Source: Saprospira grandis str. Lewin (GTDB taxonomy: Bacteria; Bacteroidota; Bacteroidia; Chitinophagales; Saprospiraceae). From it: a stretch of DNA of 64,000 nucleotides. The notes under the pieces were generated by a model. The model made no database searches and had not been told where the DNA came from. It saw only the letters and a list, made by a program, of their open reading frames with translations. The DNA lies in NCBI RefSeq assembly GCF_000250635.1, contig NC_016940.1, positions 3,906,501 to 3,970,500 on the forward strand. Reading direction: 5' to 3'. Of the stretch, positions 3,162-45,006 are shown one piece after another. Made by a program: the position numbers and the translations under genes. Positions within the stretch are counted from its first letter, which is position 1, and each line of letters starts with the position of its first letter.

Positions 3162-3875
3162 ATGCCTAGCCAAAAAATTATTATTGCTCTAGATGGTTTT
3201 GCCGCTTGTGGAAAAAGCACCCTTGCTAAATCCTTGGCCAAAAAATTAAATTACATCTATGTAGATACTGGGGCAATGTATCGTGCCGTAACCCTCTATT
3301 TTCTCCAAGAAAAAATCTCCCTAGAAGATGAGCAAGCGATTGCTCAGGCTTTGGATAATATTCGGATAGATTTCCGACATAGAGCCGGAGCCAACCATTG
3401 CTTCCTCAATGGCGAAGATGTAGAAGAGGAAATCCGTAAAATGCATGTCTCTAAATGGGTGAGCCCCGTAGCCGCGATCTCCGCTGTTCGCCGCTTTTTG
3501 GTCAAACAACAACAAGCCATGGGCCGCTTCAAAGGATTAGTGATGGATGGCCGCGATATTGGCACCGTTGTTTTTCCCGAAGCCGAACTCAAGTTATTCA
3601 TGACCGCTAGCTATGAGGTCCGTAGCCAACGCCGCCTAGCCGAATTGCAAGCCAAGGGACTTAGCGCTTCTCTAGCAGAGGTTCGTGAAAACCTCATGGA
3701 AAGAGATCAGATTGACTCTAGCCGAGAGGATAGCCCCCTACGCAAAGCCGATGATGCCATTACTATTGATAATAGCGAGTTGAGCATGAATGAACAATTA
3801 GATTTGGCCCTCGATTTGGCCCAAAAAGCCATCGAAAAAAAAAAGTGCTCAGTTAGTGCAACTGTTCTAGTCTAA
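3162..3875 (+). CDS. cmk: Cytidylate kinase
   Basis: (d)CMP kinase, 237 residues, which phosphorylates CMP and dCMP with ATP in pyrimidine nucleotide supply. Visible motifs: P-loop GFAACGKST (residues 12-20), DTGAMYRAV nucleoside-binding segment, MDGRDIGTVVFP, and the arginine-rich lid region RDQIDSSREDSPLRKADDA. Length is slightly above the usual 220-230 because of a short lysine-rich tail. Has its own -7 box upstream and a strong terminator downstream, so it is probably a single-gene unit. Confidence 0.96.
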   Translation: MPSQKIIIALDGFAACGKSTLAKSLAKKLNYIYVDTGAMYRAVTLYFLQEKISLEDEQAIAQALDNIRIDFRHRAGANHCFLNGEDVEEEIRKMHVSKWVSPVAAISAVRRFLVKQQQAMGRFKGLVMDGRDIGTVVFPEAELKLFMTASYEVRSQRRLAELQAKGLSASLAEVRENLMERDQIDSSREDSPLRKADDAITIDNSELSMNEQLDLALDLAQKAIEKKKCSVSATVLV

Positions 3876-10483: not shown

Positions 10484-10581
10484 AGTTTTTTCTGCGCTTA
10501 AAGTGTGCAGCGAAACTAAGGAATTTTTGTCATAATTTAAGCGGCTCCAGAAATCTAGTCTAAGCCTCTTGTTATTTCTTG

Positions 10582-10720
10582 TTTTTGGGGCCTCCGCAGC
10601 AAAGCTGCGGCGCTACGCTTCAGGGCTCGCAGGTCTGCTCGGCCCTGCGGCCTGACGGCCTTGGTCTGCGGCTTTGCCGCCCCCTTTCGCATCGCTAGGC
10701 CAGTCGCTTCGCTCCTTCTA
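10582..10720 (+). repeat. Modular GC-rich repeat, copy 4 (forward)
   Basis: Forward copy: GGGGCCTCCGCAGCAAAGCTG, GGCGCTACGC, GCTCGCAGGTCTGCTCGGCC, GGTCTGCGGCTTTGCCGCC, GCATCGCTAGGCC. Confidence 0.92.
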
Positions 10721-10739
10721 GACGCAGGAAATTAGTTTT

Positions 10740-10819
10740 GGGCCGATGGTTTCAACCTTCGGCCCATATTTATTGCGCTTAGCTTGGCCGCTTTTGTTGC
10801 TGTAGGTTTCAACCTACAG
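10740..10819 (+). repeat. Pair of REP-like palindromes
   Basis: Imperfect GGGCCGATGGTTTCAACC palindrome (10740-10767) followed by perfect TGTAGGTTTCAACCTACA (10801-10818). Same order and spacing as at 5119-5198. Confidence 0.75.
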
Positions 10820-10850
10820 GTGTATATACTATATATTTATGGGCTAATGT

Positions 10851-11490
10851 CTAGCAAAACTCCTTGCTAGCCGTTCTGAACTCTACGATATAGCTTGTCA
10901 AAGTCATTGAATACAGTCACTAAACTGTTCTGTATAGGTCCCTCTACTGCATAAGAGTCGTCCTGAACTCCATGGCATAGCCTATAAAACTCTAGAATAT
11001 AGGTTATGGAACTCCTTGTTTGTGCTTTTTTACTGCAAGCTAGTCCTTAGTCAACTGCAAATTAAGGGGACCAAAGGCTAGACTTGCAGTTGGTGGACTA
11101 GACTAGCGGAGTTATATAACCTCAGCTTTTCTATAATGAACCTCAAGCGTAGGTAAAGCGACCTCACCTAAGCAGTATCATAAGGTCTATTATAGGTAAA
11201 AGAACCGCAGCTAAGGACTTGCTCTAGCCCTAATTGGGGCTACTCGACCTCAAGCAATCAGTTGTGGACCTGCTCCTTGCAGTTTTGTACCTATAGAATG
11301 CAGTTCCAGACGTCTATAAAGCAGTAGGAGAGCCCTAATTTGGGTTACTCAACCTATATCTTGAGCTAAACAAGCGGCCTCTTCTGCTTCTTAAGCTAAA
11401 AAATGTGGTAGATAAGGACTATTTTGGGGTTCTTGGACCTAATTTATACCTTAGAGGACCCCTATTTTGGGCTTGTGCAACCTCTAGGCT
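10851..11490. repeat. Array with 21-22-nt period and a RACYY core
   Basis: About 625 bp without an ORF in which a five-base core (AACTC, AACTG, AACCT, GACCT or a near variant) recurs every 21-22 nt. Core starts include 10858, 10879, 10923, 10966, 10988, 11010, 11031, 11053, 11096, 11118, 11139, 11160, 11203, 11246, 11267, 11288, 11309, 11351, 11436, 11457 and 11481; most larger gaps are about twice the period. The 16-17-nt spacers differ, but some neighbours are complementary (CATAGCCTATA / TATAGGTTATG around 10988). Function unknown: protein-binding array, structured RNA or decayed iteron are possibilities. Confidence 0.6.
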
Positions 11491-11510
11491 TTGTCGCCTG
11501 CTATTCATCG

Positions 11511-11563
11511 CCTAGGGACAAGCCCCTAGGCTAATCCAATGGAGTCAGCCCTAAAGGGCTTGT
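11511..11563 (+). repeat. Truncated copy of the 168-bp inverted-repeat element
   Basis: CGCCTAGGGACAAGCCCCTA, GGCTAA and ATGGAGTCAGCCCTAAAGGG match the left third of the element at 5831. The preceding ~20 bp (GCCTGCTATTCAT) also match that copy's left flank, so flank and element were probably copied together. Confidence 0.75.
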
Positions 11564-11804
11564 TGTGGCCGTTTGGCCTTCGGCCATGGCGGCTTTGCCG
11601 CTATCTGCAGCCTAAAGGCCGCAGCCATTCTTGTTGGGCCTTGGTCTTTCTTGCCGCAGCGGCTTAAAAGCCCCTGCTTTGTTTGGGGGAAGGATATATT
11701 TGGTTTTCAGGTCCTGCGGCTTTTAAGCTGCAGGCCAATTGTTGCTGAGGAGCGGGCTCTGCTGTACCTAAATTGGCTGCTGGTTTCAACCTGCAGCCAC
11801 AGCT
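11564..11804. other. Gene-free GC-rich debris
   Basis: Short palindromic pieces such as GGCCTTCGGCC, GCGGCTTTGCCGC and GCAGCCTAAAGGC, plus a CTGGTTTCAACCTGCAGCC palindrome near 11780. They resemble loose cassettes of the modular repeat without its conserved core. No supported gene. Confidence 0.5.
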
Positions 11805-11957
11805 AGCAGGCGGCGAAGCCGCCGCAAAGGAGCGAAGCGACTTGGCCTAGGGGCCTGAAAGGGGGCCGCGCAGCGGCAGACCAAGGGCGAAGCCCGCAGG
11901 GCCGAGCAGACCTGCGAGCCCTGAAAGGGCCCGGCCGCCGCAGGCGGCAGGCCCTAA
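11805..11957 (-). repeat. Modular GC-rich repeat, copy 5 (reverse)
   Basis: Reverse copy: GGCGGCGAAGCCGCC cassette, GGCCTAGGGGCCTGAAAGGG, GCAGACC, GGGCCGAGCAGACCTGCGAG, GGCCGCCGCAGGCGGC, GGCCC. Ends 61 bp before the next gene. Confidence 0.88.
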
Positions 11958-12017
11958 AAAATCTAAATCCTCAATAGGAAGAACAAATAAAAAAGAATAA
12001 TATTAAGATATTTATAT

Positions 12018-35562: not shown

Positions 35563-36585
35563 CTAGTTACAATTTTCTACACATTGTCCAGACTTATCAA
35601 TGTAAATCCATTTGTTTTCGCCTTGGCGCATCACCTTAGCCTTGCCGCCTCTGAAGGGGCCAGCAAACATAAATTGGTAAGGGATGACGACCTCTCCTTT
35701 GGGGTTGATATAGCCCCATTTTGCGTCCTCGATCGCCACATTGGCCAGGCCTTCATTGAAGGGGAGTTCGAGGGGGTTGGGTTGGAAAAAGTTGACATTG
35801 AAGAACTTAGGTGCGATAACGATCTCTCCCTTTGTATTGAGAAAGCCCCATTTGCCTTCATAGACAAAGCCGAGCAGGCCTTGGCCCACGGGCGTGATCA
35901 CATCATAAATGGGTTCGATGAGGATATTGCCATTGACATCGAGAATGCCGTGACGTCCTTTTTGTTCATCATAGTACATAATAGTGCCTTCAGAAACGGC
36001 GCCCAGGGCCATATAGGCGCAGGGAATAGTGAGTTGCCCCTCCTTATTGATTAGGCCATATTTGCCATCTTTGGCCACCACGGCATAGCCCTCATTGTAG
36101 CCTAGAAACTCATCGTATAATTCAGGATCTTTGGCGCTATTGGCCCCACAATTTACCTTTTGCAGGCTGAGATCGCCGATAAAATCCTTGGTATTTCGGT
36201 TAATAATTTTGAGGCTATTGCCTTGGAAGGACCAAGTTTCATATTGGGTTTCTTTTTCATTGGTTCGGCGTTTAGATTGGCAAATAACCTCCACATCATA
36301 ATTTCCATCCTTCATCTTTTTGCCTTGGATATCGAGTTGGAAACGATCATTGAATTGTTGGTTGATGCGGTAGCCCGAACCCGAAATTCGGTCTGCAGAA
36401 ACGGCAATATTCAATCTTTCTTCCCAATTTTTTTCAATGCTGTGGTAGCAGCCCTCTTTTGCGCTCTGAGGCTGATTGCTGCTAGCTTCTGTGCTATTTT
36501 CTCCCGCTGTATTTTGAGGGTTAGAACAGGCTGTTATACAAAAAAAAGCAATTAAGTAGACGAAAAGGTGGCATCTAAGATTCAT
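35563..36585 (-). CDS. WG-repeat lipoprotein
   Basis: A 340-residue lipoprotein with a lipobox ITAC (Cys20). Residues ~50-165 form a first domain without a recognised name. Residues ~170-335 carry five WG repeats (DGKYGLINKEGQLTIP, KGRHGILDVNGNILIEP, EGKWGFLNTKGEIVIAP, DAKWGYINPKGEVVIP, ENKWIYIDKSG). WG repeats are short beta units of unclear function in surface and periplasmic proteins. Divergent from the DUF4836 pair. Confidence 0.85.
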   Translation of the reverse strand: MNLRCHLFVYLIAFFCITACSNPQNTAGENSTEASSNQPQSAKEGCYHSIEKNWEERLNIAVSADRISGSGYRINQQFNDRFQLDIQGKKMKDGNYDVEVICQSKRRTNEKETQYETWSFQGNSLKIINRNTKDFIGDLSLQKVNCGANSAKDPELYDEFLGYNEGYAVVAKDGKYGLINKEGQLTIPCAYMALGAVSEGTIMYYDEQKGRHGILDVNGNILIEPIYDVITPVGQGLLGFVYEGKWGFLNTKGEIVIAPKFFNVNFFQPNPLELPFNEGLANVAIEDAKWGYINPKGEVVIPYQFMFAGPFRGGKAKVMRQGENKWIYIDKSGQCVENCN

Positions 36586-44686: not shown

Positions 44687-44690
44687 ACTA

Positions 44691-44776
44691 TTAGTTTTTG
44701 TTATACCGCCTATAGTTTTTATCATTTTTAGTTATAGTTATCTTGCCTTATCTTTGTATCAACAAGGACGGAAAGC
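44691..44776 (+). promoter_or_regulatory. OxyR/peroxiredoxin regulatory repeat, unit 1
   Basis: An 86-bp unit containing TTATAGTTATC and a -7 box TATCTTTG at 44749-44756. It is repeated with few changes 106 bp downstream. The unit begins just before the oxyR start codon, so it may also hold the oxyR promoter or an autoregulatory operator. Confidence 0.75.
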
Positions 44777-44796
44777 CATAGGCCAAAAGATAGTTA

Positions 44797-44882
44797 TTAG
44801 TTTTTATTATACAGCCTATAAATTTTATCATTTTTAGTTATAGTTATCTTGCCTTATCTTTGTATCAACAAGGACGGAAAGC
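44797..44882 (+). promoter_or_regulatory. OxyR/peroxiredoxin regulatory repeat, unit 2
   Basis: Second 86-bp unit. The last ~56 bp are identical to unit 1, ending AACAAGGACGGAAAGC, with -7 box TATCTTTG at 44855-44862. The few differences lie in the first 30 bp. It probably drives the peroxiredoxin gene with a ~140-nt leader (44870-45006, otherwise featureless). Confidence 0.75.
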
Positions 44883-45006
44883 TAAAGGATAATTCGTTAA
44901 TTATTTATTATAGCTAATAGATTTTCTTCTTGTCCAGATTTAGTTCTTATTTTTTGTTCCTAGAACAAATTTAATTTATACAACTTATCAAATAAAAATA
45001 CCAATT

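Follow-up and report, generated by a model that had tools for sequence, protein, structure and literature searches.

What does a gene-free stretch of bacterial chromosome do when it repeats a short core every 21-22 nt? Such a stretch lies at positions 10851-11490 of the window, by which we mean the whole 64,000-nucleotide piece of DNA analysed here, taken from a 4.40-Mb genome (the source genome, G000) of Saprospira, marine, filamentous, gliding predators. The stretch was predicted to be free of genes and is so at the level of open reading frames of at least 80 aa, none of which lies between 10484 and 12017. Its neighbours are a CHAT/Fib_succ_major gene on the minus strand and a plus-strand gene with a sub-threshold DUF6756 match.

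The original prediction described a RACYY core recurring at 21-22 nt, and the recurrence is real. Sixteen RACYY cores lie in 10851-11490, and 8 pairs of them stand 21 or 22 nt apart; the mean over 1000 dinucleotide shuffles is 0.128 pairs. None of the 1000 shuffles attained 8 pairs, either at these lags or at any neighbouring lag pair from 10 to 60. Fourier analysis gives a best core period of 21.35 nt with a power of 9.0 (shuffle maximum 6.94, 0/1000), and 14 of the 16 cores fall within 2.4 nt of a common phase, those at 11081 and 11216 being off phase. When all bases are analysed, the peak lies at 21.45 nt and is attained by 5 of 1000 shuffles. Likewise, in a scan of the 64 kb in 640-bp segments (step 160, only segments with at least 6 cores), the top three segments all overlap the element. 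Ten core positions had been listed beforehand; eight are RACYY and two are not (TACCT at 11288, GACGT at 11309), though both of these lie in in-phase units. The cores had also been expected to share one face of the DNA, and this is unlikely to hold: on DNA with a helical repeat of 10.5 bp, sites at the mean spacing of 21.35-21.73 nt would drift slowly round the helix.

RACYY covers only half of the true motif and runs two half-sites together. Stretches round 22 arrays from three genomes were used to train a position matrix, which defines a unit of about 20 nt, RRACSTAYMTNATGGRGTTY; both ends of the unit carry RAC, on opposite strands. Between unit positions, mutual information reflects mostly neighbouring-base effects, and no clear base-pair signal was found in it. 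The element in the window has the following parts, with matrix scores for the units:

10854 to 11484 (ends approximate), plus strand: whole element, a W-type array of 5' arm, motif-poor interior and 3' arm, delimited by copies and alignment
10857 to 10876, minus strand: 5' arm unit, score 12.4
10878 to 10897, minus strand: 5' arm unit, score 18.6
10922 to 10941, minus strand: 5' arm unit, preceded by one skipped slot, score 16.4
10944 to 10963, minus strand: 5' arm unit, score 16.5
10965 to 10984, minus strand: 5' arm unit, score 12.5, overlapping 22 nt (10976-10997) that are missing in the G001 and G002 copies
10987 to 11006, minus strand: innermost recognisable unit of the 5' arm, score 19.1
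11007 to 11265, no strand: interior, mostly under the unit threshold, from RACYY cores and the matrix
11159 to 11178, plus strand: weak unit within the interior, score 10.2
11266 to 11285, plus strand: 3' arm unit, score 13.8
11287 to 11306, plus strand: 3' arm unit, score 14.7
11308 to 11327, plus strand: 3' arm unit, score 14.6
11350 to 11369, plus strand: 3' arm unit, score 12.8
11413 to 11432, plus strand: 3' arm unit, score 13.8
11456 to 11475, plus strand: outermost unit of the 3' arm, score 14.1

The interior holds seven RACYY cores, five in phase (11010, 11118, 11139, 11160 and 11246) and the two off-phase ones. The units that flank it are 279 nt apart, or 13 x 21.46. Adjacent spacers had been noted as complementary, and such pairs are present (10976-10986 with 10998-11008, 91%; 10846-10857 with 10864-10875, 83%). 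They are not a conserved feature of the element, because the first pair sits in the 22-nt unit 10976-10997, which is missing from 3 of 5 aligned copies.

Other repeats surround the element. By eye, window positions 11510-11559 are part of a repeat of about 270 bp with CCTAGGGACAAGCCCCTAGG ends; it has more than 35 matches in the genome and adjoins the outer end of at least five arrays. GC-rich palindromic strings were seen by eye at window positions 10580-10760 and 11800-11960, and similar strings in a flanking sequence from a second genome (G219, hereafter WHT, assigned to the same species as G000) have matches at many intergenic sites in G000.

The array is not unique. A blastn search of G000 with the window element returned one copy of 95% identity at 925 kb and partial ones at further loci, and a three-unit sequence model placed arrays at nine loci, near 883, 925, 1076, 2517, 2705, 2979, 3612, 3861 and 3917 kb; all 62 matches at E up to 0.1, among the best 150 of 653 candidates, lie in these nine. 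Copies of the window element itself are 95% identical in G000, 96% in WHT and 77-80% in G001 (Saprospira grandis DSM 2844) and G002. The usual plan puts minus-orientation units in the 5' arm and, after it, plus-orientation units in the 3' arm. In 15 of 22 arrays, G0_883k included, a distance of 22 or 43 nt separates the innermost units of the arms, and in 20 of 34 stretches the sequence where the arms meet resembles a palindrome of GGACGTCTATTTTGGGGTCC. Many 3' arms are expanded by 43-nt (21+22), 86-nt or 65/130-nt repeats. Arrays have 7-30 recognised units (12-30 in 26 of the 34 stretches), and several have outer ends in common. The W-type, with recognisable outer arms and a motif-poor interior, is represented by six close copies in four genomes, the window's included, and by two strongly diverged relatives in WHT. 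By a hand count of small numbers, which takes dnaA to lie near base 617 and assumes an opposite terminus, 7 of the 9 arrays of G000 point against the replication fork when read from the 5' to the 3' arm.

Among the genomes sampled, the array family is genus-specific. Arrays occur in 4 of 6 Saprospira genomes, and the two that lack them are drafts of 63% and 90% completeness. A unit-array sequence model with strict filters, scoring the best 26 candidates per listed genome, found arrays in G000 only among 198 sampled genomes of the order; one other genome had a weak match without an array. Two blastn queries against 40 relatives matched three genomes of one genus. The central-palindrome pattern was found in 16 stretches of genome contigs; the four on Saprospira grandis DSM 2844 carry arrays and the other 12 have 0-2 unit matches each. 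Phage and plasmid records gave no match to two queries. In viral contigs one pattern led to one stretch, by eye without an array, and a second pattern to none.

Spacing in the family is quantised. We counted distances below 300 nt between units scoring above 10 in 34 stretches of four genomes (two of them without unit matches); many of these arrays are related, so the counts that follow are not independent events. All 473 spacings between directly adjacent units of the same orientation (less than 42 nt) measure 21 (174) or 22 (299) nt. Longer same-orientation spacings number 55: 42-44 (31), 63-66 (7), 85-86 (6), 105 (4), 107 (3) and 148 nt (4). Forty-seven of them deviate from a multiple of 21.5 by at most 1.5 nt, and the remaining 8 (105 and 148 nt) miss one by 2.5 nt. 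The rule extends across the change of strand, where all 32 gaps lie within 1.5 nt of a multiple of 21.5: 22 (11), 43 (11), 65 (1), 172 (3), 215 (1), 258 (1), 278 (2) and 279 nt (2). A flip of 300 nt in G0_2979k (13.95 x 21.5) lies outside the counted range. We also considered whether a C at base 19 fixes the 21-nt spacing, which is only partly true: units with C go with a spacing of 21 nt in 128 cases and of 22 nt in 71, and units with other bases with 21 nt in 17 and with 22 nt in 186.

The period outlives the sequence in the diverged W-family relatives. In eight W-family elements, two of them strongly diverged, RAC[CT][CTG] has period peaks at 20.9-21.4 nt. None of 500 shuffles attains the peak in seven elements, and 2 of 500 do in the eighth; when only RAC is required, the figure is 0 of 500 for four elements and 5-9 of 500 for the other four. 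Between five W-type copies, gaps of at least 5 nt inside the element measure 22, 21 and 21 nt. Against the diverged copies there are gaps of 20, 16 and 4 nt, and one diverged copy is about 26 nt net different; quantisation is therefore imperfect.

Individual bases of the unit change at very different rates. In 13 pairs of related arrays, pooled, positions A2, T5, T12 and T17 differ in 0-8% of comparisons and C3 and G16, which also belong to the core, in 8-16%, whereas position 10 differs in 23% (5' arm) and 52% (3' arm) and positions 19 and 20 in 13-35%. These rates lean toward a position-specific pattern, because units were picked by matrix score in one array per pair, and they are not independent, since the pairs are orthologous and in several cases paralogous, with arrays common to several pairs.

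Whole arrays at orthologous loci, in contrast, are often no better conserved than their flanks. The fraction of differences in array against flanks is 0.044 against 0.103 and 0.033 for G0_2705k/G1_1218k, 0.299 against 0.148 (left, the alignable side) for G0_2517k/G2_2421k, and 0.331 against 0.218 and 0.079 for G0_2979k/G1_2797k. The W-type arrays of G000 and G002 are about 15% different. Unit totals of G000 and WHT differ by at least 3 at 5 of 7 loci, by one at 2979/2935 kb, and are equal at 3612/3546 kb; the arms count 2+5 against 2+15 units at 1076/1031 kb and 16+6 against 10+20 at 883/826 kb. Both W-type loci of G000 hold a diverged interior in WHT, and this interior is alike at the two loci, which suggests exchange between them. 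In these WHT elements (WHT_870k and WHT_3832k; L130 and L129) the interior carries AACTGGAGCTRAGGATAAA-like repeats at 21 and 42 nt, and by eye its reading frames give heptad-like peptides with stops, so it may be decayed coding sequence. Individual arrays are dispensable at strain level: the WHT W-type copy at 4051 kb is missing from the matching place in G000, and the WHT 3196-kb array has no match between the matching flanks in G000.

Inverted arms joined at a central palindrome could mean that the arrays act as RNA, either through a long hairpin in which the arms of the transcript pair or through units cut into small RNAs. On each strand, 17 of 22 arrays fold with an energy 2 sd or more below that of their dinucleotide shuffles (25 each), and the window element has z-scores of -6.4 and -5.4 on its two strands. 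Low energies on both strands are expected, because the arms are inverted repeats. Raw energy is lower on the plus strand, with its G-rich 3' arm, in 19 of 22 arrays, yet by z-score neither strand stands out. Mirror slots of the two arms have an identity of 0.549, against 0.529-0.586 at 12 other offsets, in the 14 of 22 arrays compared (set aside were the five W-type arrays plus G0_2979k and G2_2878k, with widely separated arms, and G0_883k, in which the arms join but form no central palindrome). Among 17 distinct copies of the central palindrome, from the 20 of 34 stretches above the score cut, we counted 39 one-sided changes (12 of them wobble), 2 two-sided and 0 compensatory changes. Changed pairs in the two diverged W-family rows survive no more frequently than shuffled pairs on either strand, the plus-strand values being 27/87 and 27/94 kept against 33.3 and 36.7 expected. 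RNAalifold, in an uncontrolled comparison of five and of eight sequences, reports many kept pairs, with a two-sided change in at least one sequence for 7 of 174 and 20 of 112. Rfam has no family in the element (two matches at chance level), and the only match in the window at gathering score is a tRNA. A hairpin of the two arms is thus unsupported by the mirror-register test, the central palindrome and the diverged rows. Moreover, the RRACSTAYMTNATGGRGTTY unit occurs in both orientations inside one element, which is readily understood of a DNA site but hard to square with a single-stranded RNA motif. Given these three failed pairing tests and the two orientations, we read the array as a signal at the level of DNA and regard a structured or processed noncoding RNA as unlikely.

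The arrays look most like landing strips for a DNA-binding protein. We favour the reading, at a probability of about 0.45, that the element belongs to a BOX-like family of dispersed intergenic repeats in which the unit is a DNA-binding site and the array seats a cooperative protein filament. The original prediction pointed to an iteron-like or cooperative-binding array. That class is the best supported one (quantised spacing, a phase nearly kept over motif-poor gaps and changes of strand, some constrained core bases), with RACYY replaced by the dyad whose half-sites it had merged. We take the RAC...GTY dyad as a hint of a dimer, and the quantised spacing as a hint that neighbours are in contact. 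A dimeric protein encoded elsewhere would bind each unit and neighbouring dimers would touch, giving a continuous nucleoprotein filament on an array of 7-30 units; its purpose may be nucleoid organisation, titration of the protein or local regulation. A bolder version is doubtful: that the dimeric protein polymerises on some 9-10 dispersed, fast-evolving arrays in which spacing more than sequence is the kept signal, and so could organise or bridge the nucleoid. Against a DNA site stand the strain-level dispensability, the lack of overall excess conservation, the slow drift of the sites round the helix, the imperfect quantisation in diverged copies, and the fact that tandem duplication alone would give unit-sized length changes. 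Nor was a partner found. No gene family is common to all arrays within up to two open reading frames on each side of 22 arrays; neighbouring gene families are common to orthologous loci and once to two different loci (1076 and 2517 kb). Seven scanned proteins, four from the window and three beside other arrays, have no type in common.

The main and serious rival to a DNA site, and quite possibly the right answer, is a dispersed minisatellite, selfish or neutral, that has no host function and owes its spread and homogeneity to recombination and slippage. In its favour is the turnover between two strains, with totals as far apart as 7 and 17 units, interiors that differ at two orthologous loci, and presence or absence at WHT 4051k and 3196k. 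Arrays are, besides, often no better conserved than flanks. It also fits the long arms, which are homogenised 43-nt or 65/130-nt repeats, and one empty site where, by eye, a GCCGCC microhomology could account for a deletion. The A-(B)n-C plan is shared with the BOX elements of Streptococcus pneumoniae, whose boxB number varies and whose authors think a parasitic nature more likely (PMC3049150). Like BOX as described there, the Saprospira arrays are intergenic and dispersed (nine loci), with conserved outer parts, variable tandem modules between them and a length that varies among strains. The likeness is one of plan; the Saprospira module is a 21-22-nt unit with a strict period, usually inverted arms and position-specific rates of change, and the mirror slots, central palindrome and diverged rows reveal no conserved RNA secondary structure. 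Against this rival, some unit positions evolve far slower than others, which homogenisation of whole units does not predict; the period persists in diverged interiors; and by eye neither terminal inverted repeats nor a target-site duplication was seen. The same gap in terminal features weighs on a non-autonomous transposon remnant, in which clustered 21-22-bp transposase-binding sites of opposite orientation, as at Tn7- or Mu-like ends, would have joined into an element without cargo. Inverted arms of roughly 22-bp units, presence or absence between strains, and W-type copies with different neighbour genes in different genomes agree with such an origin. We consider it very unlikely, given that the one empty site has neither terminal inverted repeats nor a target-site duplication (by eye), that two loci are conserved across three genomes and others across two, and that 26 of 34 stretches have 12-30 recognised units, more than transposon ends are known to carry.

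We could find no described counterpart of these arrays, and among the listed titles and abstract openings on Saprospira and on repeats, with subscription journals mostly outside their scope, none gives an account of such arrays. In the iteron-type centromere sites parC/ParR, tubC/TubR and parS/omega, a helical complex of protein and DNA forms on short repeats, direct or inverted, set in rows (PMC5016525). The Saprospira arrays share with these centromere sites regularly spaced short repeats with a conserved core; the centromere sites treated there are plasmid-borne and mostly near partition genes, whereas here nine loci are chromosomal and no linked gene was found. Dual-repeat TIGR arrays were considered first because of their short alternating boxes. 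They lie next to a Nop-domain gene, and their unit of 36 nt contains two repeats of 8-12 nt, with spacers of mostly 9 nt (PMC12045711). Both systems alternate short conserved boxes with variable stretches. The Saprospira arrays differ in having one 20-nt unit per 21-22 nt (period about 21.5 nt) rather than two alternating 8-12-nt repeats, arms of opposite orientation and no Nop match in G000, and a TIGR-Tas array is not supported. Among 7 genomes, G000-G004 have no match to the Nop domain PF01798, and the single one, in G026, falls short of the cut-off; this model could miss a divergent Tas.

If the arrays are binding sites, a filamentous predatory genus carries a dispersed set of DNA sites coded by their spacing, which stay in phase even as they change in sequence, length and position within one species. 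They would then offer a natural experiment in which the effects of spacing and of sequence on cooperative DNA binding can be told apart, and a bait with which to fish directly for the protein. If they are only selfish, they form a clear repeat family with an unusually strict period. Elsewhere in the window, a lone high-scoring unit (19.9) at 35688-35707 lies inside the span of a 340-aa minus-strand open reading frame, perhaps by chance, and positions 44689-44925 hold about two copies of a 106-bp tandem repeat.
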